Below are positions 46,296 to 62,334 of a stretch of DNA of 62,334 nt, in pieces. Position 1 is the first letter of the stretch. Every line of letters starts with the position of its first letter. The notes under the pieces are model-generated. The model saw only the letters and a list, made by a program, of their open reading frames with translations. It did not search any database and was not told where the DNA came from. The position numbers and the translations under genes were made by a program. Source of the DNA: Treponema sp. (GTDB lineage: Bacteria > Spirochaetota > Spirochaetia > Treponematales > Breznakiellaceae); assembly GCA_031254315.1 (NCBI GenBank), contig JAIRUQ010000115.1, positions 1 through 62,334 on the forward strand, given 5' to 3'.

Positions 46296-47090
46296 ATGGA
46301 TCTAGCAACCGTTGTAGGTTTGATTGGCGCTTTTGGCATGATTGTTTTTACCGCTATAAATACTGCAGGCAGTATGATAGGTCTTATCCGTCTTTTAAAT
46401 CTGCCTTCATTCGCGCTCGTTATTCTTGGTTCTTATTTTGCCGTTATGATTTCCAATAATTGGGCAACAGCGATTGGCTGTTTTGGCGCGATTAAACGTA
46501 CTTTCAGCGTACCGGCATACAACGAACAGGCAATCATACAAAAACTGGTTGCTTTTTCCGAAAAAGCGCGCCGCGAAGGTTTGCTCGCGTTGGAAGACGA
46601 ACTTGAAGACCTTGAAGATGAATTTATGAAGAAGGGATTGCGCCTTGTTGTTGACGGCACGGATCAGACAATCATCCGCGATCTTCTGGAACTTGAATTA
46701 AGCCAGGTACAGACCAGACATGCTGTGAATATTAACTTGTTAATGGCGTGGTCAGCCCTTGCTCCCGGATTCGGGATGATGGGAACGGTTATCGGTCTTG
46801 TAAACATGTTATCAAACCTTGAAGATAAATCCTCCATTGGTCCTAACATGGCTATGGCTCTTATAACAACTCTTTACGGCTCTATTGTAGCGAACACGAC
46901 AATTATGCCCTGGGGCAATAAGCTGAGAGGTCAGGATACTTATGAAGCTTCGGTTAAGGAAATGATAATAGAAGGAGTCCTTTCAATTCAGGCAGGCGAT
47001 AATACGCGCATCCTTGCGATGAAACTGCTTGCATATCTTACTCCTACTCTTCGCAAGAGCATGGAAGCGGAACTTCTCAAGGACGGATAA
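46296..47090 (+). CDS. motA: Flagellar stator protein MotA
   Basis: 264 residues from the ATG at 46296 (AGGAG 8 bases upstream); a TTG frame to 46278 is ignored. Four membrane helices, the cytoplasmic loop with RREGLLALEDEL and the conserved ALAPGFGMMGTVIGLVNML region are present. It overlaps motB by one base (TAATG). Confidence 0.95.
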   Translation: MDLATVVGLIGAFGMIVFTAINTAGSMIGLIRLLNLPSFALVILGSYFAVMISNNWATAIGCFGAIKRTFSVPAYNEQAIIQKLVAFSEKARREGLLALEDELEDLEDEFMKKGLRLVVDGTDQTIIRDLLELELSQVQTRHAVNINLLMAWSALAPGFGMMGTVIGLVNMLSNLEDKSSIGPNMAMALITTLYGSIVANTTIMPWGNKLRGQDTYEASVKEMIIEGVLSIQAGDNTRILAMKLLAYLTPTLRKSMEAELLKDG

Positions 47091-51028: not shown

Positions 51029-54000
51029 ATGATAAAATTTGCTTTTCGATATATTATGAAAAAAACTGCTATGTTTTTACCGTTAATTTTGGTATGTCTC
51101 TTTTCTTTTGTCAGCTTTGGAGACAGTGAGCTAGGCGAAATTCCGCCAATGCCCGTTAATGTTTCAGCCTATACAAGAGCCGATTCTTCTAATTCAGCAG
51201 ATAATGGGAAAAAATACGCAAATGACGCGGCTCTTTCAGCCGCCTTCACTTTGGATTACCGTCCATTGAAAGCGGAGCCTGTTAGCGAAGCCGAGACATT
51301 AAGCGCCGAGGAGCTTGCGGGAGCGGCAGGAACAAGCGGTTCGCAGGGTTCGGTTACAGGCGGCGGTCTTCGCAGGTTGTCAGATTATCAAACTGTATAT
51401 TTTGATCCGGCGAGAGAAGCCGTGCGTATTCAGGCAATTCGCGCCGCTCAGGAAGCAGGGCGTGAGGGACAGCTTCAAGGCGCGGCAAATGAGCCGCTTA
51501 CTGTAATTGACTGGGGACCAAGAGGGGATTATTCTTCCGCGATACAGCGTCCTTCTATATATGTTATTTTTTCACAACCGATGATTGCCCTTGCAAGTCT
51601 TGGAGAGCCAAGCGCTCTCTCGCCTTTTGTTACGATTACTCCCGCGCTAAAGGGAACGTTTCGCTGGTACGGAACAAATTTTTTAAGTTTTGAAGGAGAG
51701 GAGCCTTGCCAAAGTCAGCAGACTTACACGATTACGGTTGCAAGTGACGCTGTGTCGCTCAGCGGAAACAGAATTTCAGGTGACAAGATTTTTTCTTTTC
51801 ATACGGAGGCTCTCAGCATAAAAAGCGTTACTCCCGGCGTTGATTTCAGGGCAAGATCAGCTTTTTACTTTGATAACGATAGCGTGCCTCCCCAAGCCGC
51901 AAAACAGGTTACAATACAGTTTAATTATCCCGTACAATTCCTTGATATACTTCAATATTTGGAGATTTTGACAAATGATGTTCCAAGAAGGTTTCATCTT
52001 AAACAGGATGATGAATATAAAATTACCGCCGAATTGGTTGGTACTGTAGATTTTGATACACAGGTAAAAGTTATATTGAAGGCAGGCGCTAAATCCCGTG
52101 GCGGAACGCGCGGAACCGCAGAGGATCAAACTTACAGCTACAGAACGCCCGTACCGTTCAGTGTTATAGCGCATAACGTAAGGGCAGGTTACGGCAAATA
52201 CAGTAATTTGGTAGCTATAACTTTTAGCCATAGACTGAATGAAAGAACCGTACTAGGCGCAATAAGAACTGAACCTGTTATGGATATAAGTAATAGTAAT
52301 ATCGAAGTATACGGAAATGTACTAAGGTTATTCAATTTACCTTTAAATTACAAAGATATATTCACTGTTTTTATTTCAGATAACATAGAAGATGTGTACG
52401 GCAGGAAATTAAGCTCTCCGTATTCATGCGAGATTGTAATGCCGGATGAACCGCCTCCGGTTGGTTCGACGCGTTTTTTGTACAGTCAAAATCTTATGAT
52501 GGAAGCTCAATTTCCGCCGCGTTATGTTTTTGAATATCAGAATATTACTGAAGATTCTTATTATTTACTGACCTCTGATAAAAATCCTCTTCAGGAAAGG
52601 CGTCCCATTGCGGATTACAGAAACAGTAATTTAGTTAATGTTCCTAAAATTCAATTGAACGCAGGAACGATCAATACAAGATATTTTGAGGAAATTGATC
52701 TGTCGCCTTATCTGAATAGCCGGGGCAGGGGTTTTGTATTTTTTGACAGCGACATAATGCTGATGACCAGTGAAAGAGTGGATAATACAACCTTCCGCCC
52801 GGGAACTCCCAGAAAATTTTCAACTCATTTTAGTATACAAGTTACCGATCTTGGTTTGACCGTGCGTTATGGTTTTAACAGGGTAACAGTCCTTGTTACA
52901 AGTCTTTCAACAGGAATGCCGGTGGAAGGCGCAAGAGTTAAACTGCTGTCTAATCGTGATGTTACTCTAAGCGCGGACTTAGATTTACTTGCGAGTTACG
53001 GCTCTGCTGTAACTGATAGAAACGGTCTTGCGATAATTAACATGAATGCTAATACTTTGAGGAGCAATACTATTACTGAATATCTCCGTTCTCTGTTTGT
53101 AATTGCCGAAAAAGATGGAGATAGGGCGATATTCAATCCCCATTTTCATTTCATGTGGCGTCAGGACATCCAGACAAATCAGCCTCAGGATGCGGAAGAA
53201 ATAAAACCGGTTGCATTTATTTTTTCTGACAGAGGTCTTTACAAACCCGGAGAAACTGTTAAATTTCGCGGTGTTGACCGTTCAAAGGTGCTTGGAATGT
53301 ACACCCTCTACAACGGGGGCTATATTATTACATTGGAAGAAAATTCGTACAGACCTTCAAGAATTGTATCGCTTGAGGGAACAACAACAAGTACAGGAAG
53401 TTTCTTTGGGCAGGTAGAGTTACCTGAAGATTTAGCGCCGGGTTCCTACAGGCTTGTATACAGACGCGCAGACAGCAATTCCGTTGAAATAAATGAAACT
53501 GTCGCTTCTATTCCCATAACGGTTGCCTTCTTTGAAAGATTAAGATTTCAAGCTACTCTTTCAACTCCGCCTGAAACTATCATATTAGGTGACGATATAA
53601 ATTTAACTCTCAGAGCGAGTTATCTTTCAGGCGGCAGTCTTTCGAGCGCGTCATGGGAAGCCGTATGGTACGAAGAGATAGCTTCTTTCCGTCCGTCAGG
53701 AGAGCAGTTAAGAGGGTTTTCTTTTGGACCGATCAATCCATGGGACAGAAAGCGTAATATTGGTTCTGAAAGCGGAACATTAAGCGGACAGGGCAGTGCG
53801 TCTCTTAGCAGGGAAACAGGCGGCGGCGATAAAGTTACAGGTGCGCCGTATATGTATCAGGCGCAAGCGAGAGTTACGGAGCTCGGCAATCAAATGGTTA
53901 CAGCCTACCGTTCAGTGATGGCGCATCCTGCGAGTTTTTATATCGGTCTTAAAAAAAGCGCTTCCGGTTTTGTCCGCTCAGGACAGGAGTTTTCCTGTAA

Positions 54001-57000
54001 TTTCATTACAGTTGATATTTCCGGCGAAATAGCGTCTAACACAAATGCGCGTAACAGCCTTTTCCTGCAAAACGGAGAAGGAGCGGGACAGCTAAAGGTT
54101 GAGCTTATCCGTGAAGAATGGCAGCGTGTTCAGCAGAGGGACGCAAACGGTTATATGAGGGATGAATACACGTCCACTAAGGCTGTTGATAGCGTACAAA
54201 TGATTGATGTGCAAGACGGAAGCGGTGTTATAAGGGTAAGACCGTCATCCGCCGGTTATCATATTCTGCGTGTTTCGTCCAAGGACAGGGAAGGCAGAAC
54301 CGCGCTGACAGAGATGGGTTTTTATGTTACAGGCTCAGGCGGAGGCTACTGGAACAGTAATAATCCGACAGAACTGCGCCTTGTGCCGGATCAGGATGTT
54401 TATGAACCCGGCGACACGGCGAAAGTTTTACTGCAAAGCGCTCTCCCTCAAGGGTATTATTTAATTACTGTTGAAAGAGAGGGTATTTTTACGGAAGAAG
54501 TCCGTCATTTTACTGAATCCGTCAATGTGATTGATATTCCCATTGCGCGTAACTTTGTGCCTGTGGTTTATGTTTCTGTTTCTTCCTACTCTGTACGCTC
54601 AGGCGCTCCCTCACATGAATACGGAGAGCCCGATTTAGATAAACCAAAAGGATATTACGGCGTAGCGCGGCTCAATGTAAATCCGCGCGTTAAAGCTTTT
54701 TCTGTTAATATTCAAACAGACAAAAGAACATACTCACCCGGTGAAGAAGTTACCGTAACATTGACTGCGACCAGAAACGGCAGACCTCTGCCGCAAGCGG
54801 AACTTTCCCTTATGGCGATAGATCGCGGCGTGTTAGACCTTATTAATTACCATGTTCCCGATCCTGTAGATCATTTTTATTCCGAACGGCAATTTCCGCT
54901 TTTTGTAGGTGGAGGTGATTCCCGTTCCCTGTTGATTGACCCTGCAACTTATGTTGAGATGAGAAATGTTCTTCCCAGAGTGGAAATGGAAGTAATGGAA
55001 ATGAGAGGTATGGCATTAACGGAATCTACAACTTGGTCCGGTACGGGTTTTAATTCAGAAAAAACCGATGATGAAAGTGTTATATATGAAGAACGCAGTG
55101 ATTTTAACGCCACCGCTGTTTTTGAACCAATGCTTGTTACAGACGAGAACGGCAGGGTAACGTGCAAATTTACACTCCCCGATAATTTAACCACATATCG
55201 TGTAACGGCATTTGGCGTAAGAGGAGACCTTTTCGCTCTTAAAGAAAGCGAGATCGCCGCTCAGAATAAAATCAATGTGAGGGAAGTTGTTCCCCGCCGT
55301 TTGCGCGAGCGTGATACTGCCGAAGCCGGAGTGTTGATAACAAACCTTGATTCGTCTTCGCATACAATTACGGTTAAACTTGATGTCGGCGCTCCTCTGC
55401 CGAATGATGAGTCAAGCGGCTTGACAAAAGTTGCAGGTCGGGCTTTTGTTGACGGAACTTCGGAAAGGCGCATAACGGTAAGGAGCGGCGAGAACGCCGT
55501 TGCCTATTTTGATGTAGCCGCTGTCAGACAGGGAAATATTACCCTAAACTTTACGATAAATTCAAATGTTCTAAATGAGAGGCTAGTCCGTGAAATGATA
55601 ATAGAGCATCCGCTTGTTATGGAGACGGTTACAACTACAGGAACAATTTCCGGCAGTTCCGCAAGTGAAGGCTTGGTAATACCGTCATTTGCAGATAACG
55701 GGGTGGGAAGCCTCACGCTTACTTTGGACGCTACACGGTTAAGTTTATTAGATACGGCGATTAGTTATCTTTTCCGTTATCCTTATGGCTGTCTTGAGCA
55801 GAGAAGCTCGGCGGTGATGCCCCTTGTAGTCTTCGGCGAATACCTTGACGCTTTGGAAATTAGCTCAGAAGTTTCAGACCCGCGTCTAGTAGTGGAGAAT
55901 GAATTAGGGGCATGGGCGCAGATTCAGCTTCCAAACGGAGGTTTTCCGTATTGGTCGTCAAGTACAAGAACTGATTTTTATGTTAGTCTTAGGATAGCGC
56001 ATATTATTGCCATCGCAAAGGCAAAAAACTTTAATATACCGTCATCGCTAAATGTCGCTAACCTTGTTTCCTATCTAAACAGCGAATATCAGACCATACA
56101 AAGCTGGCGGAATAATACTGCTAATTATTATTATCAATCTTATTTGCAGTCATATATGTTGTATGTGTCGGCTCTTCTTGGCGAGAGTGTAGACCAGGCG
56201 AAGTTAGCTGAAATTTTAAGCCGTAACAATGTTGACCCGTCTGTGCTTGCGTTTGTAGGAATGACCTACCGCGCTTTGGGGCGCAATAGCGATGCCGCAA
56301 GTACAGCACAGCGTCTGCGTAACCTTACCCGTATGACAACAAGGGGTGTGGACATTACCGATCCGCTGGAGAGAAACCGTTATGGTTATTATTACGGAAC
56401 CCCTGTTGAACAGCTTGCGCTTACTTTGCAATTTTTCGCGGAACAATTTCCGGGAGACGAAATAAATACGCGGCTCCTTTTCTCACTGCTGGAAAATCAG
56501 CGTTCAAGAAAGGGGTATTGGCAAAGCACGGCGGTAACGGTGCGTGTTCTTTCTGCGGTAGACGCTTTAATAAGAGCGGAAAACCTTACCAATATTGATG
56601 TGTCGGGAACTGTTTCACTGGGAGCGGCGCAGTTGTTGCAGGGAACGTTCAAGGGTCTTGGCGCTAAGCCTGTTACAAGCACAGTTGAATTTAACAGTTC
56701 TGTTATGAGCGGTATTGAAAGGGATCGCTTACAACAGCTTAATTTTTCGCGGAGCGGAAGGGGGAGCCTTTATTACACCGCATCCCTGCGTTACGCGATA
56801 CCGTCGGAGCTTCAGTCTTTCCGCGACGAAGGGGTTGGAGTTTTCATGAGCATACACGATGTGAACACAAACGCGGAAATCAGCGGCACTGCCTTACAGA
56901 GCGGGAAAACATACCGCGCAAGAATACGGGTTTCTTCAACCAGAGACAGAACATATCTCGCTCTTCGAGTGCCTGTTCCGTCAGGCGCGGAAATATTGGA

Positions 57001-57295
57001 CATGGCTTTTGTTACGACCGCTTCTTATGATGATGTAGGCGGTGTTAGCGGAAATGAAAATAACCGCAGAGGCTCATGGGGCTGGGGTTGGGGATCATGG
57101 CTCAGTCATCAGGTAATTATGGATAACGAGATTCAATACTTCTGGGACAGGTTTTACAAGGGCGAGTCCACAGTCAGTTTCCTTTTCCGTACGGCGAGAA
57201 GGGGAGTGTACCCAACGCCGCCTGCTCAAGCTGAATGTATGTATGAGCCTGAAATCTTTGGCAGGTCGCAAGGGTTGCTCTATACAATTGAATAA
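51029..57295 (+). CDS. Alpha-2-macroglobulin family protein with thioester
   Basis: 2088 residues with an N-terminal signal segment (about 10-31). Long beta-rich MG domains fill the first 1450 residues, for example KPGETVKFRGV in the MG2-like part and FTLPDNLTTYRVTAFG before the thioester domain. The thioester motif CLEQ (Cys1588-Gln1591) is intact in YPYGCLEQRSS. Bacterial relatives (YfhM type) trap proteases in the periplasm through covalent capture. It is longer than the E. coli protein (1653). The usual partner pbpC is not adjacent. Confidence 0.92.
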   Translation: MIKFAFRYIMKKTAMFLPLILVCLFSFVSFGDSELGEIPPMPVNVSAYTRADSSNSADNGKKYANDAALSAAFTLDYRPLKAEPVSEAETLSAEELAGAAGTSGSQGSVTGGGLRRLSDYQTVYFDPAREAVRIQAIRAAQEAGREGQLQGAANEPLTVIDWGPRGDYSSAIQRPSIYVIFSQPMIALASLGEPSALSPFVTITPALKGTFRWYGTNFLSFEGEEPCQSQQTYTITVASDAVSLSGNRISGDKIFSFHTEALSIKSVTPGVDFRARSAFYFDNDSVPPQAAKQVTIQFNYPVQFLDILQYLEILTNDVPRRFHLKQDDEYKITAELVGTVDFDTQVKVILKAGAKSRGGTRGTAEDQTYSYRTPVPFSVIAHNVRAGYGKYSNLVAITFSHRLNERTVLGAIRTEPVMDISNSNIEVYGNVLRLFNLPLNYKDIFTVFISDNIEDVYGRKLSSPYSCEIVMPDEPPPVGSTRFLYSQNLMMEAQFPPRYVFEYQNITEDSYYLLTSDKNPLQERRPIADYRNSNLVNVPKIQLNAGTINTRYFEEIDLSPYLNSRGRGFVFFDSDIMLMTSERVDNTTFRPGTPRKFSTHFSIQVTDLGLTVRYGFNRVTVLVTSLSTGMPVEGARVKLLSNRDVTLSADLDLLASYGSAVTDRNGLAIINMNANTLRSNTITEYLRSLFVIAEKDGDRAIFNPHFHFMWRQDIQTNQPQDAEEIKPVAFIFSDRGLYKPGETVKFRGVDRSKVLGMYTLYNGGYIITLEENSYRPSRIVSLEGTTTSTGSFFGQVELPEDLAPGSYRLVYRRADSNSVEINETVASIPITVAFFERLRFQATLSTPPETIILGDDINLTLRASYLSGGSLSSASWEAVWYEEIASFRPSGEQLRGFSFGPINPWDRKRNIGSESGTLSGQGSASLSRETGGGDKVTGAPYMYQAQARVTELGNQMVTAYRSVMAHPASFYIGLKKSASGFVRSGQEFSCNFITVDISGEIASNTNARNSLFLQNGEGAGQLKVELIREEWQRVQQRDANGYMRDEYTSTKAVDSVQMIDVQDGSGVIRVRPSSAGYHILRVSSKDREGRTALTEMGFYVTGSGGGYWNSNNPTELRLVPDQDVYEPGDTAKVLLQSALPQGYYLITVEREGIFTEEVRHFTESVNVIDIPIARNFVPVVYVSVSSYSVRSGAPSHEYGEPDLDKPKGYYGVARLNVNPRVKAFSVNIQTDKRTYSPGEEVTVTLTATRNGRPLPQAELSLMAIDRGVLDLINYHVPDPVDHFYSERQFPLFVGGGDSRSLLIDPATYVEMRNVLPRVEMEVMEMRGMALTESTTWSGTGFNSEKTDDESVIYEERSDFNATAVFEPMLVTDENGRVTCKFTLPDNLTTYRVTAFGVRGDLFALKESEIAAQNKINVREVVPRRLRERDTAEAGVLITNLDSSSHTITVKLDVGAPLPNDESSGLTKVAGRAFVDGTSERRITVRSGENAVAYFDVAAVRQGNITLNFTINSNVLNERLVREMIIEHPLVMETVTTTGTISGSSASEGLVIPSFADNGVGSLTLTLDATRLSLLDTAISYLFRYPYGCLEQRSSAVMPLVVFGEYLDALEISSEVSDPRLVVENELGAWAQIQLPNGGFPYWSSSTRTDFYVSLRIAHIIAIAKAKNFNIPSSLNVANLVSYLNSEYQTIQSWRNNTANYYYQSYLQSYMLYVSALLGESVDQAKLAEILSRNNVDPSVLAFVGMTYRALGRNSDAASTAQRLRNLTRMTTRGVDITDPLERNRYGYYYGTPVEQLALTLQFFAEQFPGDEINTRLLFSLLENQRSRKGYWQSTAVTVRVLSAVDALIRAENLTNIDVSGTVSLGAAQLLQGTFKGLGAKPVTSTVEFNSSVMSGIERDRLQQLNFSRSGRGSLYYTASLRYAIPSELQSFRDEGVGVFMSIHDVNTNAEISGTALQSGKTYRARIRVSSTRDRTYLALRVPVPSGAEILDMAFVTTASYDDVGGVSGNENNRRGSWGWGWGSWLSHQVIMDNEIQYFWDRFYKGESTVSFLFRTARRGVYPTPPAQAECMYEPEIFGRSQGLLYTIE

Positions 57296-58410: not shown

Positions 58411-59181
58411 ATGAGTGACGAAAATAATCAATCTGAAATTACGGGAAAGAAAATTTTCTTTTTATATCCTACAAAGTCATTGCAGGATCAGGTTATCGCG
58501 GAATTAATACAACAGGAATATGAAGTATATCTGGCAAAAGATCATGTTCAATTGTCGTATGCGTTAAAAAAATATCCTGATTCCGTTGTTTTTGTAAATG
58601 TTGATGATCGTATATCGAAACCTGACTGGGAAAAATGGATTAACGGTCTTTTGACTGCTTTGCCAACTATAAAAATAGGAGTTTTTTCTTCCATTTCCGG
58701 TGAAGAATTGAAAGCCGAACATTTTTCCATGGTGCAAATTGCCTGTGGATATATCCCCTTAAAACTGGATATGAGCCATACCGTAGATAAAATTGTAAAA
58801 ATCCTTGAAGCTATAAATGTGAAAGGTCGCCGTAAATATCTTCGCGCCAACACCGAAACTGAAACTACCGCGACTCTGAATATGCCCGGAGGCAGTGGTT
58901 TTATTAACGCCTCTATCAAGGATATCAGTGTGGTAGGCGTTTCATGCGCTTTTGACAATGATCCAGAGTTTAAGAAAAATTCTCTTAATAAGGACATCCA
59001 AATCAAACTTCAATCAATGCTTGTTAAAGTAGACGCGATTGTCTTTGGTTTTCGGGAGAACCTAGGTCAAAAAATCTATGTGCTTTTATTTACCCAGCGA
59101 ATCGCCCCTGATGTCAAAGTTAAAATCCGCAAGTATATTCAACAAAACCTGCAATCTAAGATGGATAAAGAGATACATTAA
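58411..59181 (+). CDS. PilZ-domain protein with receiver-like N-terminal part
   Basis: 256 residues. The first 125 look like a CheY-type fold without clear phosphorylation residues. The PilZ domain has RRKYLR (140-145) and DISVVG (171-176), the RxxxR and (D/N)xSxxG motifs that bind cyclic di-GMP. It is close behind the PPIase gene (12 bases) and probably co-transcribed. It could link c-di-GMP to motility, though no partner is shown. Confidence 0.85.
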   Translation: MSDENNQSEITGKKIFFLYPTKSLQDQVIAELIQQEYEVYLAKDHVQLSYALKKYPDSVVFVNVDDRISKPDWEKWINGLLTALPTIKIGVFSSISGEELKAEHFSMVQIACGYIPLKLDMSHTVDKIVKILEAINVKGRRKYLRANTETETTATLNMPGGSGFINASIKDISVVGVSCAFDNDPEFKKNSLNKDIQIKLQSMLVKVDAIVFGFRENLGQKIYVLLFTQRIAPDVKVKIRKYIQQNLQSKMDKEIH

Positions 59182-59200
59182 AATATTTTATACTAATTCC

Positions 59201-60583
59201 TCATTTCCTGCTTTTAACCCTAACCAAAAGTTCTGTCCTACCCTCAATCCCCAATTTGGCGTACAGGTTTTGAACGTGGAAATGTGCCCCCGAATAGCCC
59301 GTTCCCAAAACAGAGGCGATTTCTTTCAAAGGCAGATCCGACAAAAGCAGTTCGCATAAGTCTTTTTCACGGTTGGACAGCCCAATGTGTTCAAGATCAA
59401 TATACGGCGTAGTGTCAGCCGCTTCCTGTACAATCCTCGCCAGTTTTTTTACATATCTTTTCCAGAAAACCAGAAACACGCCGACAACAAGCGCAAGGGA
59501 CGGAAGGATAATGGCAAACAGCATACGCCTGAAAGCCTTAGCGTGGGTATCCCACTTTTCCCCTTCCCCAAAAACACCGCTTATTAGTACGTTACCGAAA
59601 TAACTAAGGTTATCGTTTTCGCCAACCGTATCATCTCTGAACCCCAGAAATATCTCAGAAAGTTTGATAATAGCAATCGCGTGTCCATAGCATGGAGGTA
59701 TACCTAGCCCTGCCAATGCGGTATTCCGGTATTCGGCAGGAGCGTTAGCGCCGTAAATGATGCCGCCGGTCTTTTTGAACGAACCCATGCCGTCTGTATA
59801 AAAGCCCCCGCCGTTGTGCTGAACGGTATTATTCATGATGACCCCGCCTTCCATGGTAAAAATACCAAAATGGCGAAGGAACACTCCGCCGCCGCAGGGG
59901 TGCGGATTGCGTGTATCGTTTATGTTTCCCCTAATGGTTCCGCCTTTCATAATAAATTCTGCCTGCCTGTCAACAATGTCCCCTTGTGTAAAAATATATA
60001 CGCCTGTGCCGTTCTGATAATAGTTAGTTGTCATAGCGTCGCCGATGTTTTTATTATTTTGAAGAGTAACCCTGTTGTACATTATCAGTTTCGAGTCCGG
60101 TCCGCTTAACGCAATCAGTGGAGAATGAGCTTCTATTGGCGTGCTATTCAAGTACCCGCCGTCAATGATTAGTTCATGCAGAGGGGAACCGCGCATCGTT
60201 GATTCGACGCCGCTAAGCGGCTCGGTGCGGGTTCGCTCCATATCCGGCTTCCCCAGGCTCAGGCTTGCGCCCTCTCCCCTTACCCATATAACCGGAAATT
60301 CAATAAGATTGCCGCTTCTTTGTATGGTTCGGTTGCCGTTTGCCACAAGCCTGATATGCACACCGTCCTCAATTAACAAAGGCTCGTCCAAAACAATATC
60401 CGCAAGCACCGTGATTTCATCGCTCTGGTCAACAGAGGTCCCGGCGGCATCGGCAAAGGCTTCATGGAGGCTGTCATAGTAAAATACATTAACGCCGTCA
60501 AACCGGCTTGCGACTTGAGCCGAAAGAACGGTAGCACAAAGTAAAAAAATTGCCACAAAGGATAAAATTTGCTTCTTCCCCAT
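59201..60583 (-). CDS. Membrane-spanning LuxR-type regulator with beta-helix sensor, copy 1
   Basis: 460 residues in this order: signal peptide ending at LSAQ (1-22); exported region (about 23-345) with right-handed beta-helix repeats such as GGTIRGN, GIFTMEGGVIMNN and KKTGGIIYGANA; one membrane helix (354-374); cytoplasmic LuxR/GerE helix-turn-helix (401-455: GLSNREKDLCELLL, KEIASVLG, HFHVQNLYAKLGI). The beta-helix resembles surface proteins of treponemes. It reads as a one-component receptor: outside ligand, inside DNA binding. The ATG follows a run of GGAG words, and the gene starts 3 bases after the copy 2 stop. Confidence 0.88.
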   Translation of the reverse strand: MGKKQILSFVAIFLLCATVLSAQVASRFDGVNVFYYDSLHEAFADAAGTSVDQSDEITVLADIVLDEPLLIEDGVHIRLVANGNRTIQRSGNLIEFPVIWVRGEGASLSLGKPDMERTRTEPLSGVESTMRGSPLHELIIDGGYLNSTPIEAHSPLIALSGPDSKLIMYNRVTLQNNKNIGDAMTTNYYQNGTGVYIFTQGDIVDRQAEFIMKGGTIRGNINDTRNPHPCGGGVFLRHFGIFTMEGGVIMNNTVQHNGGGFYTDGMGSFKKTGGIIYGANAPAEYRNTALAGLGIPPCYGHAIAIIKLSEIFLGFRDDTVGENDNLSYFGNVLISGVFGEGEKWDTHAKAFRRMLFAIILPSLALVVGVFLVFWKRYVKKLARIVQEAADTTPYIDLEHIGLSNREKDLCELLLSDLPLKEIASVLGTGYSGAHFHVQNLYAKLGIEGRTELLVRVKSRK

Positions 60584-60586
60584 TCC

Positions 60587-61939
60587 CTACTCCCCACTCC
60601 CCATTCCCTTTCTCTTTAATAACAGTTCCGTCCGCCCCTTTATACCCATTTTGCGGTATAACTTTTTGGCGTGGTAATCAGCCGTTGCATAGGTTAATTT
60701 CATAACCGAGGAAATCTGACTCATAGAGAGCTCCGTCAGAAGCAACGAACCTACTTCTTTTTCACGGGCGGTCAAATTCAGATTTTCAAAAATAGATTCC
60801 AGTGCCGTGTCCGCCGCTTCCTTCGCTATCCTCATCAGTCTTTGTAATGCCCTTTTCCGGAGAAGCAAAAAGACGCCAATGATGAGTGGCAGAACAGGCA
60901 GGATAATAGAAAGTAATATACGCCGGAAAGCCTTGTCAGGATTATCCCATTTATCCCCGTCACCAAAAACACCGCTTCCACGAGGGACTCCGGTATAACT
61001 TATATTCTCGTTTTCGCCAACCGTATCATTTCTATATTGTGCCAAAGGCTTCAAAGCAACAAACACCCAAACCGCGTGTCCGTATTTTTTTGGCTGTCCG
61101 TTTCCGATTAGGACGGTATTCCGGTATCCGGTAGGGGCGTTGGAGCCGTAAATAATACCGCCTGTTTTATAAAATGAAGCCCTGCTACCCATACCAAGAC
61201 CTCCGCCGACGAATAGGGCGGTATTGTTCATTATAACCCCGCCTTCCATGGTAAATATACCAAAAGCTGCCATATACACCCCGCCGCCGAAAGCCAGCGA
61301 AGTTTGTAAATTATTAATGTTTCCCCTAATGGTTCCGCCTTTCATGACAAATTCCGCCTTGCGGCTTTGAACGTCTCCTCGTGTGCGGATAAATACGCCC
61401 GCGCCGTTCTCATAGTAACTGGTGTCCAAAGGAGCGCCTGAGTTTTTATTGTTTTGAAGCGAAACCTTGTCATACATTATCAGCTTTGCGCCCGGTCCGC
61501 AAACCGAAACCAGAGGACAATGTGCCTCTATAGACGGAGAGTCCAAATAGCCCCCGTCAATGACAAGTTCGTGCTCCATACCCGGCTTGCCGAGGGTGAG
61601 GCTTGAGCTGTCTCCGTTTACCCATAAGACCGGAAATTCGATAAGATCGGGGCTTCGGTGTATAGCCCTATCGGAGCCGCCGGCAACCAGCCTGATATGC
61701 TGACCGTCCTCGACCGTCAACGGGGCGTCTGAAACAATGTCAACTAACAGAATGATTTCATCGGGCTGTTCGATAGAGGTTCCGGTTGTTGCGGCAAAGG
61801 CTTCATGGAGGCTGTCATAGTAAGACACCGTAACGCCGTCCGTCCGGCTTGCGACTTGTGCATAACAAATGAAGAGTGAAAAGTGAAAAAAGAAAAATGT
61901 GAAGATGACTTTTAGATAGCTTTGTCTTTCATTTTTCAT
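60587..61939 (-). CDS. Membrane-spanning LuxR-type regulator with beta-helix sensor, copy 2
   Basis: 450 residues with the same plan: signal ending at CYAQ, beta-helix (GGTIRGN, GIFTMEGGVIMNN, YKTGGIIYGSNA, GHAVWVF), membrane helix near 343-363 and LuxR HTH (NLTAREKEVGSLLL, MSQISSVM, YHAKKLYRKMGI). It is about 60 percent like copy 1 outside, but the HTH recognition helix differs clearly (LTYATADYHAKKLYR against TGYSGAHFHVQNLYA). Copy 1 has an insert of about 20 residues after LGKPDME. The stop of copy 3 lies 10 bases upstream. Confidence 0.88.
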   Translation of the reverse strand: MKNERQSYLKVIFTFFFFHFSLFICYAQVASRTDGVTVSYYDSLHEAFAATTGTSIEQPDEIILLVDIVSDAPLTVEDGQHIRLVAGGSDRAIHRSPDLIEFPVLWVNGDSSSLTLGKPGMEHELVIDGGYLDSPSIEAHCPLVSVCGPGAKLIMYDKVSLQNNKNSGAPLDTSYYENGAGVFIRTRGDVQSRKAEFVMKGGTIRGNINNLQTSLAFGGGVYMAAFGIFTMEGGVIMNNTALFVGGGLGMGSRASFYKTGGIIYGSNAPTGYRNTVLIGNGQPKKYGHAVWVFVALKPLAQYRNDTVGENENISYTGVPRGSGVFGDGDKWDNPDKAFRRILLSIILPVLPLIIGVFLLLRKRALQRLMRIAKEAADTALESIFENLNLTAREKEVGSLLLTELSMSQISSVMKLTYATADYHAKKLYRKMGIKGRTELLLKRKGMGSGE

Positions 61940-61949
61940 TCTTCATTTC

Positions 61950-62334
61950 TCATTTGCCACTCTTGATTCTAACCAGCAGTTCTGTCCTACCCTCAATCCC
62001 CAATTTGGCGTACAGGTTTTGGGCGTGAAAATTAGCCCCCGAATACGTTAAATTCAAAATTTGACCGATTTCCTTCAAAGTACGGTTTGATAGTAGCAAT
62101 TCGCATATTACTTTTTCACGGTCGGACAGACCCATATTTTCAAGATCAATATACGGCGTAGTGTCCGCCGCTTCCTGAATTATCTTCGCCAGTTTCATTA
62201 AGTATCTTTTCCTGAGAAACAAAATAGTACAAACGGCGAGCGTAAGAACCGGCAGGATAATGAAAAACACCAAACGCAGGAAAGCTTTATCGTGGTTATC
62301 CCATTTATCCCCTTTCCCAAAAATACCGATTTCC
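61950..62334 (-). CDS. Membrane-spanning LuxR-type regulator, copy 3, partial
   Basis: Only the C-terminal 127 or so residues are in the window: GIFGKGDKWDNHDKAFLR before the membrane helix matches copies 1 and 2, then VFFIILPVLTLAVCTILFL, then LuxR HTH GLSDREKVICELLL, KEIGQILN and NFHAQNLYAKLGI. The HTH is close to copy 1. The sensor domain lies beyond the right edge, and more copies may follow there. Confidence 0.85.
   Translation of the reverse strand, partial: EIGIFGKGDKWDNHDKAFLRLVFFIILPVLTLAVCTILFLRKRYLMKLAKIIQEAADTTPYIDLENMGLSDREKVICELLLSNRTLKEIGQILNLTYSGANFHAQNLYAKLGIEGRTELLVRIKSGK

Follow-up and report, generated by a model that had tools for sequence, protein, structure and literature searches.

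ToxR, CadC and TcpP are single-pass, membrane-bound one-component regulators with an N-terminal winged helix-turn-helix (HTH) and no signal peptide. The Y_Y_Y/propeller regulators of Bacteroidota carry a large exported sensor, of a fold other than the beta-helix, and a C-terminal HTH. The lux box and the NarL-type sites are dyads with ACCT...AGGT ends. The locus described here is a tandem array of three genes at the end of a contig of Treponema sp. (GCA_031254315.1, JAIRUQ010000115.1). The window is this entire contig of 62334 bases, contig C123 of genome G000. The sequence and a structural model support the products as membrane-anchored one-component regulators, hereafter receptors, with a beta-helix sensor on the outer side of the membrane and a LuxR-type HTH on the inner. 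Like ToxR, CadC and TcpP, they are single-pass, membrane-bound and one-component, but they start with a hydrophobic helix and have the HTH at the C-terminus. A large exported sensor with a C-terminal HTH is also a feature of the Bacteroidota regulators, as these are generally described, although the sensor fold differs. The dyads found beside relatives of the array are similar to the lux box and NarL-type sites at their ends, with a core of ACCTA-N10-TAGGT, an AT-rich centre and a usual arrangement in pairs.

Membrane LuxR regulators with 10-12 transmembrane (TM) helices and a C-terminal HTH have been characterised in Eggerthella lenta as DadR, CadR and HcdR (PMC9734109). DadR without its TM part is produced but inactive, and the molecular mechanism of this class is called unclear by the authors. 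That article nowhere uses the terms ‘inverted repeat’ or ‘palindrom’, and among its ‘operator’ passages those displayed concern cumate and lac parts. The receptors resemble these Coriobacteriia proteins, as described there, in the N-terminal membrane part, the C-terminal LuxR HTH and the proposed control of a neighbouring locus. They differ from the DadR class in having one TM helix and a large exported beta-helix, often in tandem, instead of 10-12 TM helices. The transmembrane transcription regulators (TTRs) are one-component proteins with a TM segment and a DNA-binding domain, approximately 56% of them single-pass, and are enriched in Spirochaetota (PMC10269533). The receptors likewise are one-component, single-pass and from Spirochaetota. 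Y_Y_Y is present in 7.7% of TTRs, and the main text of the survey contains 0 occurrences of LuxR and of beta-helix (PMC10269533). The contrast in domain order with ToxR and CadC, drawn in the initial annotation, holds, but the reverse order is not itself new, as it is found in the E. lenta LuxRs (PMC9734109). No report of a beta-helix sensor on a membrane LuxR regulator was found in searches of the open-licence PubMed Central papers. The best label for the receptors is a variant of the transmembrane LuxR one-component regulators, in which the beta-helix sensor and the dyad motif are new here.

The array is located at 59201-62333 on the minus strand, as three consecutive genes in the open reading frame (ORF) list with gaps of 3 and 10 bases, exactly as first annotated. 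Copy 1 (59201-60583, minus strand) encodes 460 amino acids (aa). Its signal peptide covers approximately residues 1-22 and ends in ...LSAQ (60518-60583), with a hydrophobic stretch at 6-24 and a model helix at 3-19. This is followed by the predicted exported right-handed beta-helix sensor (residues 25-345; 59549-60511), the TM segment (residues 355-373; 59465-59521), placed by hydropathy, flanking charge and the model in a predicted helix at 347-391, and the LuxR/GerE HTH (residues 402-457; 59213-59380), assigned by Pfam PF00196 and Foldseek. Copy 2 (60587-61939, minus strand; 450 aa) has the same layout and is 57% identical to copy 1. Its TM segment lies at residues 341-359 (60863-60919, hydrophobicity scan) and its HTH at residues 388-440 (60620-60778). 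Only the C-terminal 127 aa of copy 3 are present (61950-62333, minus strand), comprising the end of the stalk, the TM segment (62217-62273, by the same scan) and the HTH (61971-62132), with the rest beyond the contig end. The missing part was not found in the remaining G000 assembly, so extension of the contig yielded no more of copy 3. A receptor in G000 was seen only on C123, with no further copy in the rest of the assembly, where the other 25 matches are beta-helix-only or HTH-only.

The GerE profile scored above the Pfam gathering cut-off of 23.5 bits in all three copies (28.5, 32.9 and 34.9 bits for copies 1 to 3), and a hydrophobic membrane segment precedes the HTH in each by a simple hydrophobicity scan. 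The same scan, which is not a signal-peptide predictor, detected a hydrophobic stretch at the N-terminus of both complete copies, 1 and 2, in which GG-x-I-x-GN stretches were also recognised by eye. The initial annotation, which gave every copy a signal peptide, these repeats, one TM segment and a C-terminal GerE/LuxR HTH, is therefore borne out for all three in its last two parts, and for copies 1 and 2 in the first two; the 127 residues of copy 3 contain neither. By eye, the signal peptide of copy 1 ends in a signal-peptidase-I-like sequence and no lipobox is seen at this point in copies 1 and 2. The AlphaFold2 model is of copy 1, with copy 2 entering its alignment only. It shows a signal helix followed by a right-handed beta-helix, from which a single long membrane helix leads to the LuxR/GerE HTH. 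The proposed check by structure prediction thus returned both domains. Foldseek matched the HTH of copy 1 to those of DosR, LiaR, GerE and NarL with a probability of 1.00, but with E values of 0.025 and above.

The sensor fold is, in the model, a right-handed parallel beta-helix. Among the matches listed, it resembles polysaccharide enzymes, phage tailspikes and adhesins alike, and singles out none of the signals first guessed at (carbohydrate, surface or cell-cell contact); the VIA-align listing was filled by beta-helix matches, and folds outside it may also match. No Pfam beta-helix model matched the window copies at E<=1, and the sensor contains nothing above the Pfam cut-offs. A lyase or epimerase profile was likewise absent from Pfam and NCBIfam matches at E<=1, a range in which the HMMER filters drop most matches above 0.1. 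NCBIfam returned LuxR- or sigma-type HTH tails for the window copies, all below cut-off.

Topology was scored in 22 of the 23 family sequences, leaving out G006_83c. A TM segment before the HTH is present in all 22. Of the two 15-residue stretches that flank the TM segment, the one following it has the higher net charge in 21/22; in the remaining sequence the two are equal. The count of K+R alone is higher on the HTH side in 17/22, equal in three and lower in two. A sensor outside and an HTH inside fits both this flanking charge and the model, from which the polarity would follow. Read in this way, the two domains would lie on opposite sides of the membrane. Together with the GerE profile and the model, the flanking charge supports the earlier suggestion of membrane-anchored one-component regulators.

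The sensors of copies 1 and 2 are 61% identical, in agreement with the earlier remark that the sensor parts are alike. The HTH of copy 2 had been noted to differ from the other two, and it does: copies 1 and 3 are 73% identical in the HTH, whereas copy 2 is 46% identical to either. In the recognition region, copies 1 and 3 (SGAHFHVQN and SGANFHAQN) retain much of the family pattern and copy 2 (ATADYHAKK, within ATADYHAKKLYRK) does not. A foreign HTH swapped into copy 2 was considered and is not supported. The three window HTHs form a single clade with support of 95/81, and for this reason the HTH of copy 2 looks to have diverged in place.

The suggested search for this architecture across genomes found a receptor, or a fragment in which sensor and HTH are joined, in 12/195 genomes of the taxonomic family (G000, G006-G010, G019, G025, G027, G029, G042 and G111; G, C and L label genomes, contigs and fetched loci, with positions after an L label given within the locus). 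At the genus level copy 1 matched in 13/39 genomes at 1e-10, some by the beta-helix or the HTH alone, and a family profile at 1e-12 matched something in 93/195 genomes, mostly one half only. Samples of the order and the phylum, which overlap, gave matches in 11/390 and 3/392 genomes, all within the same family; a twelfth match in the order sample, G097, is beta-helix only. Tandem receptors occur as two copies in G007, G008, G009:C32 and G010 and as three in the window. As 11/18 receptor loci are no more than 300 nt from the end of their contig, copy number is probably under-counted. Sensor orthologues recur across species (G008_a/G010_a/G009_64, G008_b/G010_b/G009_12, G007_a/G009_32a and G007_b/G009_32b). 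Four named receptor loci belong to Treponema metagenome-assembled genomes with ‘Emb289’ isolate names, which we take from the name to be of termite-gut origin. A phage origin of the receptors was also considered, and no matching phage record was found.

Candidate operators were first seen as 20-bp dyads on alignment of the regions upstream of lipoprotein genes beside receptors. The motif is lux-box-like. The exact sequence ACCTAN10TAGGT was counted 12 times over 14 genomes (33 for the reversed pattern). Eight of the 12 lie within approximately 3 kb of a family-type LuxR gene (two each in G009, G111 and G191, one each in G008 and G042), and four are without a known LuxR neighbour (G006:C26, where none was found, G029:C84, G042:C8 and G049). 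A search for paired dyads over the 195 genomes returned 67 pairs, all of which were fetched. Sixteen are AT-rich by a cut of 0.55 that was chosen after the list had been seen. All 16 are intergenic, with dyad spacings of 42 (four pairs), 43 (seven), 44 (one) and 53 (four). A family-type HTH gene lies within 1.5 kb of 13/16 AT-rich pairs and of 0/51 others, which include an AT-rich tandem repeat in G088 and the only pair in G000. The corresponding values of 6e-15 (uniform spacing) and 2e-11 (Fisher) are not taken as probabilities, due to shared ancestry and the post hoc AT cut.

Sites were also sought at loci chosen by protein. In the 17 receptor loci fetched in this manner (166 kb), six pairs have a dyad spacer of 10 and none a spacer of 6-9 or 11-14. 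Across 80 fetched loci there are 17 pairs at spacer 10, none at the others from 5 to 16 and one with four sets of control half-sites; many of these loci were fetched for the spacer-10 pattern, which biases the control and makes the 17-locus count the fairer. With a site matrix from which the genome under test, or the near-identical group that it belongs to, was left out, and a background of approximately 300,000 positions with a maximum of 11.5-12.9, a site above that maximum was found at 8/17 receptor loci and 10/20 other LuxR loci (18/37), two of the latter, L047 and L114, overlapping receptor loci. Two sites are present at 15 of the 18, the second sometimes below the background maximum. Their spacing is 42-44 or 53 bp in 13 loci and 32 bp in G019, and spacings of 32, 42-44 and 53 bp correspond to approximately three, four and five helical turns. 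Near misses were recorded in G006:C83 (10.9, with a weak second site 43 bp off) and G009:C67 (9.6 and 8.8, 43 bp apart). The dyads beside some of the relatives' receptor genes are probably the sites that these HTHs use. The promoter comparison proposed at the outset gave candidate operators among the relatives and none in the window, where a single near-match with one mismatch lies elsewhere, at 46300. The window HTHs would, by analogy with their relatives, use a version of the same site.

The same HTH type also ends polytopic Treponema proteins (approximately 470 aa; 5-10 hydrophobic segments detected in a simple scan), a dCache_1 protein and a Sel1 protein. The polytopic proteins share both HTH type and operator with the receptors, and their likeness to DadR is one of layout. 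One protein carries the family HTH type first; in L011 (G000:C18:1-852) the order reads by eye as HTH, hydrophobic segment and outer part. The HTH tree (46 rows, 56 columns) is weakly resolved. Three labels placed on it need eight changes, with a minimum of two and an average of 18.7 in shuffles. The G025 receptors and the Cache protein of G036 have a possible HTH link (95/83), and the beta-helix receptor of G042 falls among the polytopic proteins.

Over 168-187 bases, starting at the first HTH codon (three codons in for G182 in one comparison), the HTH DNA of this G042 receptor shares 94-97% identity with polytopic LuxR genes from other genera. At L091:8822-9263 (G042:C3) the HTH, 3' flank and operator run collinear with G182:C153, where another genus has a polytopic LuxR locus. 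Downstream of the HTH, four blocks of 76, 69, 74 and 114 bases keep the order that they have in G182:C153, the third being the operator pair. The 114-base block is a repeated sequence, as it also matches a second place in G182:C153. An apparent toxin-antitoxin remnant was noted by eye in this 3' flank. The sensors upstream of the shared block are unrelated, a beta-helix in G042 and a polytopic part in G182:C153. Because the HTH and operator are collinear while the sensors are unrelated, we read G042 as a natural sensor swap, in which one sensor appears to have replaced another on a retained HTH-operator block. The initial annotation had proposed that similar signals may drive different promoters in the window; outside the window, at G042, the converse is seen, with one type of HTH and operator serving sensors that are not alike. 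The locus amounts to an experiment by nature, with a different sensor on a retained output head and operator.

It is considered probable, on balance, that the receptors act as membrane one-component regulators which pass a periplasmic signal from the beta-helix to HTHs on paired ACCTA-N10-TAGGT dyads, and so to an adjacent envelope-type gene. The beta-helix would be exported to the periplasm, with one helix across the inner membrane and the LuxR-type HTH in the cytoplasm. A ligand or the state of the envelope would act on the beta-helix as the signal and alter the association or orientation of the HTHs. HTH dimers would then bind the 20-bp dyads, usually two in helical phase, and from the membrane switch the adjacent gene, perhaps with the receptor gene too. 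Activation by the dyad-bound regulator, rather than repression, is plausible, and the nearest site lies 34-124 bases from the start codon in the 11 cases examined. The sensor would be exchangeable, as suggested by the same HTH-operator block under a polytopic sensor. A more far-reaching version is doubtful: a plug-and-play LuxR head with a phased operator of two or three dyads, at three, four or five turns, would be recombined onto beta-helix, polytopic, Cache or Sel1 sensors, the beta-helix would read the cell's own envelope or surface-repeat proteins, and adjacent receptors on adjacent dyads would pull the DNA to the membrane.

Several observations weigh against the mechanism held above to be probable. 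The window itself has no operator, the promoter of the array lying beyond the contig, and the one adjoining stretch of DNA, a short gap between the array and the convergent PilZ-like gene, contains no site. In G000, exact ACCTAN10TAGGT is absent, single CCTRN10YAGG sites number 73 versus 100 for the reversed control, there is no AT-rich intergenic dyad pair, and the only pair (C5, spacing 52) is in coding sequence with an AT of 0.54, just under the cut. Among the relatives, no site above background occurs in 9/17 receptor loci and 10/20 other LuxR loci (19/37). Several of these have their upstream region off the contig, but G025:C178 and G029:C149 have it on the contig and show no clear site. 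G010, G191 and G192 show a single strong site, the Cache-locus sites (L072) are 67 bp apart, out of phase and not at whole turns, and 3/16 AT-rich pairs are without a family HTH gene within 1.5 kb. The loci share ancestry, so that the counts are not independent, and the background consists largely of regions that had been selected because they matched a G+C-rich pattern, together with the window. For topology, four sequences have additional weak hydrophobic segments within the sensor, and three complete sequences have no N-terminal segment above the scan cut.

Three other explanations were weighed. Regulated intramembrane proteolysis, in which a cut at the membrane or close to it would free the LuxR domain to act in solution, is a rival to the membrane-action step only and is regarded as unlikely. 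In the model approximately 12 residues separate the end of the long helix (391) from the start of the HTH (404), leaving little reach from the membrane, and TcpP is reported to be proteolysed (PMC11323476); the 12-TM relative DadR, however, requires its TM part (PMC9734109). That the dyads are bound by a different regulator, which controls receptors and neighbours together, is improbable. The pairs far from a family HTH gene are consistent with it (none in the fetched region of G006:C26 and G182:C41, 6.2 kb away in G035:C149), as is a lone site in G006:C26 with a lipoprotein gene on one side and a receiver-like gene on the other. Set against these are the pairs within 1.5 kb of a LuxR gene, whose partners are six beta-helix, six polytopic and one Sel1 protein, and the retention of HTH and operator together across the sensor change.

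The beta-helix could also be an adhesin or enzyme with an HTH-like tail that is vestigial or a structural anchor, and here the sensor does match parts of larger beta-helix repeat proteins from the same bacteria and, by fold, the adhesin PfbA and polysaccharide lyases. This is very improbable, given that HTH core residues are conserved across the receptor family, that GerE is above cut-off in every window copy, and that operator-like sites stand beside 8/17 receptor loci and came with the HTH in G042. With these receptors, a beta-helix joins the range of sensors seen on membrane-anchored transcription factors, and does so in spirochetes that are represented here mainly by metagenome assemblies. 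The candidate operator offers a direct handle, as the HTH, DNA site and target gene are testable in E. coli without culture of the host.

The genes adjoining the receptors and dyads suggest the cell envelope as a target theme, by the analyst's own grouping. A small lipoprotein gene is found beside four receptor loci, G009:C12, G009:C64, G006:C63 and G006:C83 (L084:1689-2021, L086:1659-1967, L094:2212-2547 and L095:2395-2757). At 1e-5 in five genomes this family has three members each in G006 and G009, two in G029 and none in G000 and G010, so that receptor neighbours are 4/8 of the matches and 4/6 within G006 and G009. The L084 protein has DUF5640 and lipocalin-like matches, both below cut-off, and a single-sequence model of the small lipoprotein is all-beta with a pLDDT of 58.7. 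A zinc-ribbon-like protein (FxFSFxCDxCGxEW) accompanies pairs or sites in G022, G189 and G111 and receptors in G019 and G029:C149 (L087:9521-9856, L089:4819-5142, L092:2836-3225, L185:3023-3313 and L186:2007-2369); the two scanned, L087 and L185, have no Pfam match above cut-off. The G182:C41 pair adjoins a Band-7/SPFH protein with zinc ribbons, the G035 pair is flanked by a BOF protein and an M23-LysM endopeptidase, one per side, and a CsgG/LpoB-like lipoprotein is near the G021 site. LRR_5 proteins are located one or two genes further on in G189 and G019, and several genes next to dyads have no Pfam match. Pfam, run on part of the neighbours, found no carbohydrate enzymes among them. The lipoprotein downstream of the receptor in G025:C143 is cellulase-like by eye, which would favour carbohydrate sensing at that locus.

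Three pairs that have no family HTH gene closer than 1.5 kb, at L179:4859-4931 (G006:C26), L177:4160-4222 (G182:C41) and L178:3522-3583 (G035:C149), are candidate markers of targets in trans. Between operator and start codon, L084, L086, L094 and L098 have a similar leader (a GC-rich inverted stretch, GGAGAAC and ATG) with unlike targets. A receptor fragment in L046/L095:1121-2230 (G006:C83) carries two LuxR HTHs at its end, and in L088 around 685-870 (G025:C178) a receptor has a loose HTH beside it. Runs of G or C near contig ends (L094:257-300, L086:34-80, L097 and L134) resemble sequencing or assembly artefacts, and some lie inside receptor genes, giving PPPPPP or GGGGGG when translated.

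Outside the array, the convergent PilZ-like gene (58411-59181, plus strand) is given for context only; its PilZ score of 19.8 bits is below the 22.5 cut-off. Further upstream, a 2088-aa protein at 51029-57295, alpha-2-macroglobulin-like by eye, precedes a peptidyl-prolyl isomerase (PPIase)-like gene and the PilZ-like gene. By eye on the gene maps, G029:C56 likewise has a PPIase-like gene paired with a PilZ-like one ahead of a receptor.

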